Below are positions 566 to 40,211 of a DNA stretch of 53,176 nt, piece after piece. The notes under the pieces are model-generated. The model was not told the origin of the DNA. It was given only the letters and a program-made list of their open reading frames with translations, and searched no databases. How positions within the stretch are numbered: the first letter of the stretch is position 1; every line of letters begins with the position of its first letter. A program made the position numbers and the translations under genes. Location of the stretch: the NCBI GenBank assembly GCA_028685755.1, contig JAQUDJ010000012.1, forward strand, positions 3,894 through 57,069, in the 5' to 3' direction. This DNA is from Eubacteriales bacterium (lineage in GTDB: Bacteria; Bacillota; Clostridia; Saccharofermentanales; UBA5734).

Positions 566-1822
566 TTAGCGGATCACAACAGCCCTGTCAAAATCAGAAC
601 CTGGTTTGCCACCAGCGGCGATTTGCCAGAGATCGGAGGCCGCAATATCAAGCTGAGCTTGACGTTGGAGGACATCATTTTCAGGATAATCATGAAAGTC
701 TGAGCCGCGTGTGATAATCGGCAACTGAGCTTTTTCTCGCATGAGCTTTAACAGGTAGCGACCGCTTTTGTCAAAGCCCAGGACACGGATATATTGGGGG
801 CCACTGGCCGCATCAAATTGCTGATAATCAACTTGGGTGAGCCCTAATAGCATGGCGGTCAACGCTCGCTGAACTCGCGTTTTTGGTAATCGCCGACTCA
901 TCGCTTGCTCAACGAGTGCATCGAATGTCTGGCAAACGTCCGTTTTGGCTATAGCGACAAGCCGTTGAGCGAGACCTTCGCCCATTCCAGGGATATTTTC
1001 AAGGGACTCAACTGAACGCGTCCGTAAATTGGCCATGATCGGCAGAAACAAATCATCACTAAAGAGGGGACCCTGAGCTTTGGCGACTGCCTCAAGGAGC
1101 GTGGCCAAGGAAGCAGTGGGCATCGTATGAGCAAGCCCTTGGAGTTGATTGGCGACATCACGGGGGGCCATTTTAATCAATTGGCGAATTGCCGTCGCAC
1201 TCGACAAGGCTGACTGTAAACGTGGATCATTAAAGGCTTGACCTTGGCGCAAAAAGGTCACGGGCTTAAGGCGCGATCGCGACGTGAGGCGACGATTTGC
1301 TTTCAAATATTCGACCGCCAGAATATTATTTGAATTTTTCAACAATTCAGCGTCTGCTGGCTGCTCAAGTGTTCGTGCCAAAGCTTCCTGACGGGCGGCG
1401 GCGAAAGATTGACCGAGTTCGAGCTGTTCGGCCAAGGCTGCTTTGAAGGCTGACGATTCCTCGGTTAAAGCTGCGGCTAATCGTTCAAGTGCTGGCAACT
1501 CACCGTGTTCGCTACCAAATACAAGCGTTTTGGTGATGCCAGTCGCTGCGAGTAACTGCACCCCGCCAGCGGCAAAACGTTCGGCACTGGCGGTGGCGTA
1601 CGCAAACGGCAACTCAATCACGAGGCTTGCACCACAGTCGAGCGCCATTTTTGCGCGAGCCCATTTATCGATAAGGGCTGGTTCGCCACGCTGGGTGAAA
1701 TGCCCACTCATGACGACGACAACGGCGCAATCGGATCCGAAAGTCGCTTTGACCTGTTTGATTTGCCATTGGTGGCCATTGTGAAGGGGATTGTATTCGA
1801 CAATAATACCTGCTGTTTTCAT
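566..1822 (-). CDS. tmcAL: tRNA(Met) cytidine acetate ligase (TmcAL, YlbM family)
   Basis: The family forms N4-acetylcytidine at the wobble base of elongator tRNA-Met, using acetate and ATP. The nucleotidyltransferase entry motif EYNPLHNGH (residues 9-17) and the downstream [14 protein letters not shown] segment are characteristic. The reading frame is open upstream to 1885, but the start at 1822 fits the family N-terminus ([12 protein letters not shown]) and gives 418 residues, the usual size. No Shine-Dalgarno sequence precedes this ATG. Instead an extended -10 box ends 6 nt before it, so the mRNA may be leaderless. It is divergent from the gene at 1868. An acetate-using enzyme lying near pta-ackA is suggestive, but the link is inference. 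Confidence 0.93.
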
Positions 1823-1828
1823 GCGTCG

Positions 1829-1861
1829 ATTATAGCAGGCATAGGCTGATTCTGCTATGAT
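1829..1861. promoter_or_regulatory. Back-to-back extended -10 promoters between tmcAL and the gene at 1868
   Basis: On the minus strand TGCTATAAT occupies 1837-1829 and the tmcAL ATG starts 6 nt later at 1822. On the plus strand TGCTATGAT occupies 1853-1861 and the next ATG starts 6 nt later at 1868. Both fit TGnTATNAT extended -10 elements, and neither start codon has a Shine-Dalgarno sequence. The two boxes are arms of an inverted repeat (ATAGCAG at 1832-1838, CTGCTAT at 1852-1858). With a normal 6-7 nt spacer, transcription would begin at or next to each ATG. Confidence 0.6.
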
Positions 1862-1867
1862 GGCGGC

Positions 1868-3160
1868 ATGGCAACGATTGAACAAAAGCGCAGTGGAAAA
1901 AACCGACTAGGCATATGGCTGGGCATTCCAGCTGGTTTGGTGCTGATTGGCATCCTGATTTTTTATATTTTCATTTATGCACCGCCGCGGCCGTTTTCGG
2001 TGCCAGGTTCGGCATCCTTTGATCGAGCGACACAATACACAATCAGTTCGGATGTTACGACAGCTCTAGCCGATCGTCTCCGCTTGAACTTAGCGACTGA
2101 TGTCGGGTTAGTCGCTTGGTATCGTCAAGAAAATCGGGAACTCGCTTTACCCCGTGAAGTCGCAACGTCTTATGATGCATCGGAACAACTACGATATGGG
2201 GCCTGGCTCTCAGAACAAGCAAATTCTACAGCGTTCAACACCTGGCTTCGCAATTTTCAGGTGGCTTTTATTTCGCCGGACGGGCTAGTGTATGTGAGCC
2301 GTACTGCTGAGGCCGCGACCAATCGAACGCAACTCAAACCGGAGGACTCGACTGCTGTTTCGTGGCCAGACTCACTCCTTTACCTGAGAGTCATTGCCCA
2401 AGGCTATGCCAAATGGCCTAGTCGTAATTTGGACAAAACAGAAAAAGCCGCGCTTGCAAGCCTGGGTATCGTGCTCGGTGACCAACTAGCCGCGGATAGT
2501 CAAATGGCCATACAGACTGCAGCGCCAACCCTTGACCCTGCAGAGTTACCACCGGAACCAACAGCCCCGCAAGCTGTATCAGAACTTCCAACAGAACCCG
2601 TGATTCGTTTAGAAACCCTTGACCTCTTGACACTGCAGTATCTAGGTGAACTCGATGCACGATTTGCCACGCGTTACCTAGAAGCACTTGCGATCGCCCA
2701 AGGTGGTCTAATCAGTGAGACATTACCACTCTATGCCGCGACCTTCTACCCGGCTAATCAAGGCTATGTCCGTTACGAGGGTACCGTTCCGGAAATCAGC
2801 TTAGAAGCTTCCTTACAGGTAGCTTTGCACCTCGCAGAAGTTGGACAACTTGACCCACGAACGCTTAGTTGGTTATCTGAACATTTACTCAACGACGGAG
2901 CACTTTACACGCATTATCATATTGCCCAAGGTCAGGCGACTCGCCATGAAGAAAGCCTGGTTGGCTATGCCCTAACAGCCCGCATTGCACGTATCGCTGG
3001 GCAAGAGGCGCTTTACGAAAAGGCGGTCGAACGATTGCAATGGCATTTGGCTACAAGTCTAACGAGTCAAGTGCGTGGCGCGATTTTTCGACAAGAGGCC
3101 GATGAACGGATAATAATGACCGCAAATGACAATATTTGGGCGTTGTTAGCCTTTTCGTAA
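1868..3160 (+). CDS. Unknown membrane-anchored extracellular protein
   Basis: 430 residues. A short basic N-terminus is followed by one hydrophobic segment at about residues 15-37, so the bulk should lie outside the cell. There is a Pro/Glu-rich linker near residues 220-243 (many P, E and T), separating two helical regions. The pattern of Trp/Tyr-rich helices, and phrases such as SEQLRYGAWLS and ANDNIWALLA, remind me of the (alpha/alpha)6 barrel of family 8-like glycosidases. I cannot identify catalytic acids and do not assign that function. The start at 1868 has no Shine-Dalgarno sequence but sits 6 nt after an extended -10 box. Alternatives are a cell-wall-associated hydrolase or a purely structural surface protein. 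Confidence 0.7.
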   Translation: MATIEQKRSGKNRLGIWLGIPAGLVLIGILIFYIFIYAPPRPFSVPGSASFDRATQYTISSDVTTALADRLRLNLATDVGLVAWYRQENRELALPREVATSYDASEQLRYGAWLSEQANSTAFNTWLRNFQVAFISPDGLVYVSRTAEAATNRTQLKPEDSTAVSWPDSLLYLRVIAQGYAKWPSRNLDKTEKAALASLGIVLGDQLAADSQMAIQTAAPTLDPAELPPEPTAPQAVSELPTEPVIRLETLDLLTLQYLGELDARFATRYLEALAIAQGGLISETLPLYAATFYPANQGYVRYEGTVPEISLEASLQVALHLAEVGQLDPRTLSWLSEHLLNDGALYTHYHIAQGQATRHEESLVGYALTARIARIAGQEALYEKAVERLQWHLATSLTSQVRGAIFRQEADERIIMTANDNIWALLAFS

Positions 3161-38500: not shown

Positions 38501-39054
38501 TTGGTTACGACCTGATCGAAGTTATGGCTTGCCCAGGTGGTTGTATCAGTGGTGCTGGTCATCCAGTCCCTGAAAAAATCGATGCCTTAGACAATCGCCA
38601 AAGCGTTTTGATCAACATTGATAAGACCTCCAAATACAGAAAATCTCAGGAGAATCCGGACATCTTACGCCTGTATAAAGAATTCTACGGTGAACCGAAT
38701 TCAGAACTCGCGCATGAACTGCTCCATACCCACTACCATGCCAAATTAGGCGACGGGGTCACGAGTATGGTTCGTAACAAAGGCAATTCAGCCTTCGTGA
38801 CTCATGAATTGACCATCTGCTTCTGTGACACCTGCACGAGCAAAGGCTCACGCGAGGTCTATAACAAGCACTTGGCCGATGTCATGCGCCATAACATGGA
38901 CTCCTTTATCGACGTCAAAGCGATTCGTCTCAAAGGCAACCACCCGACCGACGATGTCTTCATGACTCTTGATGGGCTGACTGTTGATGAAGCCAAACTA
39001 GCCCGCGACCTAAAAAAGATCAAGAAAGAGAAGACGGTTATCGTTCAAGTCTGA
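35590..39054 (+). CDS. Multi-domain [FeFe] hydrogenase fused to a GltD-like flavoprotein
   Basis: 1154 residues. Order: [2Fe-2S] domain (about 1-85, Cys in LCYDI and NCGLC); GltD-type Cys segment (CVQTCP, CGRVCPHPCEAQC); FAD motif VVGAGPSGLAAAYY and NADPH motif VVGGGNTAIDC; two [4Fe-4S] motifs (CISCGRC, CVSCGQC); then the H-cluster domain. H-cluster ligands: TSCCPGW (Cys779/780), VPCLAKKYE (Cys835) and EVMACPGGCISG (Cys981/985). A C-terminal ICFCDTC region resembles half of a NuoE-type [2Fe-2S] domain. It should couple NAD(P)H and H2. The ATG at 35590 follows GAGAGGG; an upstream ATG at 35440 lies before the promoter. No maturase genes are in the window. Odd: Val replaces the usual Met before the second H-cluster Cys. 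Confidence 0.95.
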   Translation: MKSISNKNRIKVTVNGRQMEVFDNLTILQSLLQENVHIPHLCYDIRLDRANGNCGLCVVELGEKGERDVKACQTPIKDGMVISTHSPKLDGYRKVRLEQLLSDHNADCVAPCVQTCPANIDIQGYLAQVSNGNYEAAVRIIKDSNPFPVVCGRVCPHPCEAQCRRSLVDSPVSINHVKRFAADWDMDRDQCWLPTKAATTGKKIAVVGAGPSGLAAAYYSAINGHDITVFERQPYAGGMMRYGIPEYRLPKATLDKEIDTMRALGVKIVTGKALGTHISLEDLHKDFDAVYLAIGSWRATPMSIEGENLEGVMLGIQYLEQVTRGRTIVLGDVVVVGGGNTAIDCARTAKRKGATSVKLVYRRTQEEMPAEAFEVEEAIHEGIEMVFLMAPQKITLGEHGKKNLECIKMQLGEPDRSGRRRPVPIEGSETVIAADTIIGAIGQSTNTQFLYNDLPVKLNKWGDIEINGKTSQTSEDNIFAGGDCVTGPATVIQAVAAGRRASDAMNSFLHAGYVRESNVDFSCSRGSMEDLPRWEFEERPKFRRATMPAISLEARNLNFDEVELGLSEEAAVTEARRCLKCGCGERYDCNLRQEATDHGIEYRQPVHDRPYIPVVEDHPFIIRDHNKCISCGRCIAACAEIEGPDILTFYIKQGRQLVGTKSGLPLDKTDCVSCGQCVNACPCGALDYKRERDRVFRAIHNPKKTVVAFVAPAVRSVISQHYGKPFSEAAPFTAGMLKSLGFDKVFDFTFAADLTIVEETTEFLNRVHAGGVMPQFTSCCPGWVNLVERRYPELIPHLSSAKSPQQMMGATVKNHFGKMAGIDRKDLFVVSVVPCLAKKYEAARPEFAVDKNRDVDAVLTTTELLEMKSQARIDPSEITPCEFDEPYKQVTGAGILFGASGGVAEAALRMAVEKLTNKPLVEHLDFEEIRGFEGVKEATINADGTNVRVAVISGLHNAEPIINKIIQGIDVGYDLIEVMACPGGCISGAGHPVPEKIDALDNRQSVLINIDKTSKYRKSQENPDILRLYKEFYGEPNSELAHELLHTHYHAKLGDGVTSMVRNKGNSAFVTHELTICFCDTCTSKGSREVYNKHLADVMRHNMDSFIDVKAIRLKGNHPTDDVFMTLDGLTVDEAKLARDLKKIKKEKTVIVQV

Positions 39055-39060
39055 TATCAT
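39052..39060 (+). promoter_or_regulatory. Extended -10 box directly before the second AI-2E permease gene
   Basis: TGATATCAT fits TGnTATNAT and overlaps the hydrogenase stop. The ATG follows 8 nt later with no good ribosome binding site, so a leaderless transcript is possible, or the gene is read through from the hydrogenase. Confidence 0.4.
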
Positions 39061-39068
39061 GTTCAGGT

Positions 39069-40211
39069 ATGAATGAACAACAAAATGCCCCTTTGACCGC
39101 AAAATCGCTGGCGCTGGCTCTGTCCGGTGTAGTTATCCTGTACTTTGTCTTGGCGAATATAAATGTCGGTTTTGCTGTGATCTATAACCTCATCGCGGTG
39201 GCCATGCCTTTAATTCAAGGCATGGCCATTGCTTATATGCTTAACCTGCCCATGCGAGGCATCGAAAAACAACTTGGCAAAATATGGCAGAAACAGCGTA
39301 AGGGTTTGCGCGCCGTTAGCCTAATTTTCACACTCATTTTATCCGGAGGCATCTTAGCGGCTGTGCTGATGTTGCTGATTCCACAATTAATCGTCAGTGT
39401 AACGGATCTAGGCAGTCGCTTGCCTAGCCTGATCACCCAGACCAGCAACTGGCTCAATCAGACCGCTGCCGCATATCCCTGGATATTAGAGGCTTTTGAT
39501 TCGCTGCACTTTACCTCAAGTGATTTAATAGCCTGGTTTACACAAGTGATATCTGGCAATGGCGCTGGTTGGTTTAGCTCGACCCTCAATTTTGTTGCAT
39601 CGGCGTTTGGTTGGGTAGTCTCTTTGATGTTGAGCCTGATTTTCGCCATTTACCTCTTGCTTGCTAAAGATCGCCTCCAACACCAATTAGATCGCCTGCT
39701 GAGTGCGATGCTGTCGATGCGAATGGCACAAAAAATTCGCGGGTTGGCGCATTTAACTCATGAGACTTTCGGCCATTTTCTGACCGGCCAATTCATTGAG
39801 GCGTTAATCTTGGGCGGGATTTTTCTAGTGATATTAATCGTTTTTGGCTTCCCCTACGCACTGCTGATTTCTGTCGTGATCGCCTTGACAGCGCTTATCC
39901 CGATGGCTGGTGCATATATCGGCTTACTAGTTGGCGCTTTCCTGATTTTGCTCATTAACCCATGGCAAGCGCTGGTTTTTAGTTTGATTTTTTTGATCGT
40001 GCAACAACTTGAAAACAACCTGATCTATCCCCGGATTGTGGGGGATTCGATCGGGTTGCCGGCAATTTGGGTCTTGGCTGCTGTCGTATTAGGCGGTGGT
40101 CTTTTTGGGGTCCTCGGGATGCTTTTATTTATTCCGTTGACCTCGGTTGTCTATAAACTGCTTTATGGGTGGGTCAAACAGCGCGAAAAGCTTGCAAAGC
40201 ATCCAGAATAA
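39069..40211 (+). CDS. AI-2E family membrane permease, copy 2
   Basis: 380 residues with about eight membrane segments. The family C-terminal signature is NNLIYPRIVGDSIGLPAIWVL, and QFIEALILGGIFLVILIVFGFPYALLISV is the conserved inner region. It lies 14 bp after the hydrogenase but has its own extended -10. The ribosome binding site is weak. Its last 38 bp overlap the 3' end of the convergent UPF0303 gene. It differs from copy 1 at 19054-20268, and the substrate is unknown. Confidence 0.88.
   Translation: MNEQQNAPLTAKSLALALSGVVILYFVLANINVGFAVIYNLIAVAMPLIQGMAIAYMLNLPMRGIEKQLGKIWQKQRKGLRAVSLIFTLILSGGILAAVLMLLIPQLIVSVTDLGSRLPSLITQTSNWLNQTAAAYPWILEAFDSLHFTSSDLIAWFTQVISGNGAGWFSSTLNFVASAFGWVVSLMLSLIFAIYLLLAKDRLQHQLDRLLSAMLSMRMAQKIRGLAHLTHETFGHFLTGQFIEALILGGIFLVILIVFGFPYALLISVVIALTALIPMAGAYIGLLVGAFLILLINPWQALVFSLIFLIVQQLENNLIYPRIVGDSIGLPAIWVLAAVVLGGGLFGVLGMLLFIPLTSVVYKLLYGWVKQREKLAKHPE

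Follow-up and report, generated by a model that had tools for sequence, protein, structure and literature searches.

Two divergent genes, separated by a spacer of 45 bp, lie near the beginning of a 53,176-nucleotide stretch of DNA from a Eubacteriales bacterium (contig JAQUDJ010000012.1, positions 3,894 to 57,069; hereafter, the window). Both of their putative promoters are harbored within the spacer. In window coordinates, the locus comprises the following features.

566..1822, minus strand: tmcAL-like gene encoding a HIGH nucleotidyl transferase of 418 aa (PF05636), the message of which is predicted to start at the ATG.
1822-1820, minus strand: tmcAL start codon ATG; the A at 1822 is the predicted transcription start, as judged from the -10 spacing.
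1829-1837, minus strand: extended -10 box TGCTATAAT, read from the sequence, 6 nt (CGACGC) ahead of the tmcAL ATG.
1823-1867, no strand: inter-ATG spacer of 45 bp containing both promoters, without a Shine-Dalgarno (SD) tetramer for either gene.
1853-1861, plus strand: extended -10 box TGCTATGAT, read from the sequence, 6 nt (GGCGGC) ahead of the plus-strand ATG.
1868-1870, plus strand: start codon ATG of the plus-strand gene; the A at 1868 is the predicted transcription start, as judged from the spacing.
1868..3160, plus strand: gene for a membrane-anchored protein of 430 aa that resembles glycoside hydrolase family 8 (GH8-like; profile search, structure model, and Foldseek).

The minus-strand gene encodes what we take to be TmcAL/YlbM, the tRNA-Met cytidine acetate ligase of tRNA modification. 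Its product matches PF05636 (E 3.6e-122, 409 bits) over residues 1-403 counted from the proposed ATG, the HIGH_NTase1 domain extends over the full length, and the HxGH motif is present as HNGH. Against the NCBIfam nucleotidyltransferase model NF010191, the protein scores 356.3 bits, the cut-off being 360. The plus-strand protein has no Pfam or NCBIfam match at E 0.001 and is referred to as GH8-like rather than GH8 because the curated family models give no match. A profile of 15 sequences retrieves PDB 3ren, deposited as ‘Glycosyl hydrolase, family 8’, with E 2.7e-34. The structure model (pLDDT 86.1), which has a predicted N-terminal helix at residues 13-36, yields the same entry as the top Foldseek match (E 4.3e-16, TM by target 0.83). 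The protein is thus akin in both sequence and fold to solved members of glycoside hydrolase family 8. Its gene stands divergent to tmcAL in the loci examined from the same family of bacteria.

Direct reading confirms the layout given in a preliminary description of this DNA, namely two extended -10 boxes, each 6 nt before an ATG that lacks an SD sequence, in a 45-bp spacer. The tetramers GGAG, GAGG, and AGGA were looked for at -17 to -5 of both genes and are absent; likewise, no -35 element is recognizable upstream of the minus-strand box. The usual distance from a -10 box to the transcription start is 6-7 nt. A gap of 6 nt fits this distance and places the predicted start point of each gene on its start codon, so that +1 would be the A of each ATG. 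Hence, we infer that transcription of both genes begins at the start codon.

The genome-wide count of extended -10 boxes before ATG that had been suggested as a check was carried out on the whole genome (2,040,893 bases, 56 contigs) and gives a peak at 6 nt. TGNTATNAT followed by ATG at gaps of 3-12 nt occurs 61 times, as opposed to 13 times for the reversed pattern, and gap 6 accounts for 14 occurrences against a mean of 5.2 per other gap (Poisson P 0.001; 0.002 without identical strings). The exact form TGNTATAAT is found 6 nt ahead of ATG at 10 sites versus 1.44 per other gap (Poisson on other gaps, P 3e-6). Six of these ten sites open distinct ORFs of at least 50 aa (one of them, of 91 aa, is doubtful). 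Three others open only very short ORFs, such that not every gap-6 site marks a gene, and one is a probable duplicate. The promoter and start of an AraC-type gene are found both near the start of contig C22 (L023, 89-106) and near the end of contig C37 (L077, 1997-2014), and the 46 nt compared are identical. The two copies are probably a single place split in the assembly, and the number of TGNTATAAT sites at gap 6 may therefore be 9, not 10. In G001-G005, five further family genomes, gap 6 occurs 14 times and the other gaps 4-11 times; it is the largest class among the matches listed (76 rows), yet the peak is weak.

Initiation in this genome otherwise looks SD-dominated, with a small predicted leaderless class. 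In a 453-kb sample consisting of 20 stretches and the window, an SD-like tetramer precedes a candidate start in 286 of 391 ORFs, compared with 71 of 391 random positions, and the earlier statement that most genes here have strong ribosome binding sites holds as far as sampled. The only extended boxes (at least 5/6 letters) at gap 6 in the sample are the window’s own pair. Since the 20 other stretches hold none, the extended-box leaderless class is rare.

The strongest support for a predicted leaderless start comes from the conservation of the tmcAL promoter. The gene is readable in 20 of 23 family genomes (G003, G007, and G017 have no match), and a strict box was defined as TGN followed by at least five of the six letters of TATAAT, 5-9 nt before the aligned ATG. 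Sixteen of the 20 loci pass (gap 6, n = 7; gap 7, n = 6; gap 9, n = 3), while control windows at gaps of 12-36 nt contain a box in 0 of 100 cases and an SD tetramer is found at none of the 20 starts. The three loci with gap 9 likely have a short leader. Two further loci carry TATAAT without the TG at gaps 8 and 9 and fail the strict test; in the remaining two, both of genus g4, no box was found at gaps 5-9. The box is conserved despite a GC content that ranges from 0.43 to 0.74 among the tmcAL loci of the family. Together with the 6-nt peak, this conservation upholds the earlier proposal that both genes of the pair look leaderless.

Extended -10 boxes by themselves can be weak, and the -35 region of tmcAL is not clearly above shuffled sequence (mean match 2.67 versus 2.33, 18 loci). 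With a -35 match so little beyond shuffled, tmcAL would rely on the extended -10 box. Both points leave room for an alternative in which the boxes are chance occurrences or secondary promoters and the main starts lie further upstream, giving rise to leadered messages without SD sequences. This alternative is quite unlikely, given that box and spacing are kept at the 16 tmcAL loci and never occur in the control windows. In addition, each start is merely 45 bp from the coding region of the other gene, and a longer leader would therefore run antisense into that gene.

Outside the family, the tmcAL start has a different appearance. Among the best 10 of 54 non-family genomes with a match, drawn from three other families of the order, the box is present in 0 of 10 and an SD sequence in 7 of 10 (control windows, 2 of 50). 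At one of these loci, L141, a TATAAT that lacks the TG stands at gap 7, and the trait may thus extend to its sister family. Of 291 genomes drawn from the class, 175 match the tmcAL start pattern together with its upstream region, a lower bound because starts with a G in the first position escape the pattern. A second pattern, TATNAT at gaps 5-9 before tmcAL, is found in 3 of the 291 genomes: the present genome (the sole family member drawn), one of the same order, and one of another family.

The plus-strand gene follows a narrower distribution. A divergent ORF of at least 150 aa faces tmcAL in the 20 readable loci. At the protein level, the gene is identified in all but three (G003, G010, and G017) of the 23 genomes; the facing ORF in G010, where the protein search gives no match, is a candidate homologue only. 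The box stands at gap 6 in this species, in G010, and in G011, and at gap 8 in three congeners, in which the predicted message would begin 5′-AUAUG, i.e., with a 2-nt leader. The gene would thus have no leader, or almost none, at 6 of 20 family loci, which come from two genera only. In the other 14 loci, the start is further from the box, mostly after an SD-like stretch (read by eye). The predicted leaderlessness of the plus-strand gene is local to these two genera, and the earlier reading stands for this species and for two genomes of another genus, with a short leader predicted in the three congeners.

The preliminary description had also treated the two boxes as arms of one inverted repeat. 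The arms, ATTATAGCAG and CTGCTATGAT, do match in 9 of 10 letters, both box regions are identical across four species of the genus, and TGCTATGAT has the same letters in three congeners. These features would suit an operator for a regulator of both genes, with the -10 boxes being incidental. However, the boxes of the pair differ in other genera (for example, TGCTATAAT with TGGTATGAT in G011 or with TGATATGAT in G005, by eye), and the separation between them changes among genera while each remains -10-like (by eye). The operator is therefore very unlikely and was rejected on the variation of box pairs and spacing between genera. The repeat is not a feature in its own right; its symmetry arises because two like promoters face apart.

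A further alternative holds that the start codons are misassigned and that the true starts lie downstream behind an SD leader. The start codons were indeed called by ORF and alignment only. Four observations make this very unlikely. The TmcAL domain starts at residue 1, and in the 20 family loci the motif E[Y/F]NPxHxGH lies no more than 20 residues past the aligned tmcAL start. On the other side, three congeners share the N-terminal MATI of the plus-strand protein, and the next possible start codons of its gene, at residues 24-25, lie within the membrane helix at 13-36.

It is thus likely that two divergent extended -10 promoters lie directly against the start codons and give rise to leaderless messages. 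In the proposed mechanism, two back-to-back promoters of the sigma-A type would abut the start codons of the divergent genes, and RNA polymerase would start each message at the A of the AUG or, where relatives have a gap of 8-9 nt, a few nucleotides upstream. Translation would proceed without SD contact, most likely by 70S ribosomes on the 5′ AUG. The two start points would be 46 bp apart, such that each -35 region overlies the -10 region of the other promoter. Consequently, two polymerases should not bind together, and their mutual exclusion predicts a reciprocal use of the two promoters.

The same arrangement is found at a pgsA-like gene, the name of which is tentative because the protein scores 95.0 against TIGR00560, under the cut-off of 109.1. 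The strict box is present in 10 of 21 family loci (gap 6, n = 7; gap 7, n = 3; control windows, 0 of 105), the other 11 do not pass, and an SD tetramer is found in 3 of the 21; the count excludes L190 (partial), L191 (a paralogue), and L192 with the other second copies. In contrast to tmcAL, the pgsA-like gene has a -35 element, TTGAGT or TTGACC at 17-18 bp, in ten TATAAT loci (mean match 4.2 versus 2.4 shuffled). These comprise nine of the ten strict-pass loci, L172 being left out owing to its position near a contig end, and L187, which lacks the TG. Approximately seven pgsA-like starts from outside the family but within the order, retrieved with a pattern that missed the genome’s own gene and read by eye, have no TATAAT at gaps 5-9. 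The distance from box to start is held at two unrelated genes, tmcAL and pgsA-like, with different promoter make-up.

Other candidates are confined to fewer genomes. In this species, deoA is preceded by TGCTATAAT, 6 nt, and ATG (L193, 1441-1515), while four congener loci (L194, L195, L196, and L211) have TATAAT and a leader of ~31 nt with a GGTGGG-like SD sequence. A recent change is the likely explanation; deoA of this species appears to have dropped the ~31-nt leader and turned leaderless. As a family-wide leaderless gene, deoA was rejected, with the gap-6 box occurring in this species alone among 17 loci; these are 17 of 21 matches, four having been excluded because they are distant paralogues or lack the N-terminus, which is also missing from L197. 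The birA gene has TGATACAAT at gap 6 in this species and a weak box, TGGTAAGAT, with four of six letters of TATAAT, at gap 7 in three congeners; 14 of 21 matches were read (L148-L161), and L162-L168 were excluded as fragments or for an unreached N-terminus. Further gap-6 candidates by sequence are an AraC-type regulator and an unclassified 400-aa protein, L016, which has just a weak NCBIfam match under the cut-off. Candidates at gap 7 are aminopeptidase P and a sugar transferase.

A similar layout had been noted at position 39069. The letters are present, with TGATATCAT, 8 nt, and the ATG of an AI-2E transporter gene at 39052-39069, and the TG of TGATATCAT belongs to the TGA stop of an upstream ORF of 1204 aa. 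The layout is not conserved, and 39069 was rejected as a further leaderless case: the box overlaps the upstream stop, and four congeners are GAGG-led with TATAAT further upstream (11 of 20 matches examined, L214-L224).

Leaderless genes of this kind have precedents among the Firmicutes, the group to which the present genome is assigned through five distant relatives (28-39% identity) from a scan of named genomes. According to Zheng et al. (2011, PMC3160421), genes led by a TA-type signal are, within Firmicutes, concentrated in Lactobacillales and Mycoplasma, and those of Lactococcus have a strong TG. A transcription start map of S. pyogenes and S. agalactiae gives 8-9% leaderless mRNAs, 54 of them common to both species (PMC6431027). 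The earlier statement that leaderless genes are uncommon in Firmicutes thus needs qualifying for the streptococci and for the groups in which such genes are concentrated. Lactococcus and Streptococcus resemble the present case in that a box resembling TATAAT, joined in Lactococcus by a strong TG, stands right before the start in a minority of genes, and many leaderless genes are kept between Streptococcus species. The differences are the lineage, the number (some ten sites with an extended box in a genome, versus 8-9% of streptococcal mRNAs), and the evidence, which here is DNA sequence. The present case is a known kind of TG-extended leaderless gene, as in Lactococcus, in another lineage.

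Similarly low numbers are given for Clostridioides difficile (15 potential leaderless genes, PMC7438776) and for enterococci (13 and 10, PMC7724050). Those genes were mapped by RNA, whereas the present ones are predicted from a layout that certain genes retain within one family. In Deinococcus-Thermus, according to PMC12340547, leaderless genes with a -10 motif have the form TANNNT, account for approximately one third of the genes of D. radiodurans, and were tested experimentally; motif, proportion, and experimental footing all differ from the present case. Both PMC6431027 and PMC12340547 attribute initiation of the 70S type to leaderless mRNAs generally. A limited literature collection yielded no paper on TmcAL and leaderless messages or on divergent leaderless genes, and nothing relevant on leaderless mRNA with pgsA or on leaderless transcripts in uncultured, metagenomic, or Clostridia genomes.

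Leaderless starts are known but used by a minority of genes, and here one appears to be kept at tmcAL in most of the relatives examined. This adds a lineage in which the predicted leaderless start of one gene is traceable across numerous genera and can be set against SD-led relatives from sister families; deoA provides one case of apparent leader loss within a genus. Because of these two features, the way in which genes switch between SD-led and leaderless starts is open to comparative study. Gene models are affected as well, as programs that use ribosome binding sites to call start codons may place such starts wrongly.

A broader hypothesis, considered quite unlikely, is that the family’s leaderless starts form a selected, lineage-specific set, consisting of tmcAL and the pgsA-like gene, joined in some genera by birA and the GH8-like gene. 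A number of leaderless AUGs would persist as tiny upstream ORFs, the translation of which would gate a downstream SD-led gene, and expression would thereby reflect how 70S/leaderless and 30S/SD initiation are balanced. Extended boxes with the ATG of a tiny ORF 5-7 nt on are found in the genome itself at L005 1501-1518, L078 2094-2111, and L076 2151-2167. Transcription start points have a preference for CAT, and the tiny ORFs may be either leaderless upstream ORFs or a mere reflection of this preference. They can be as short as ATG-stop and lie ahead of another gene start. The same layout occurs upstream of the plus-strand gene in G005 (L120), G016 (L126), G021 (L125), and G022 (L123); in G021 and G022, the stop of the tiny ORF overlaps the ATG of the gene.
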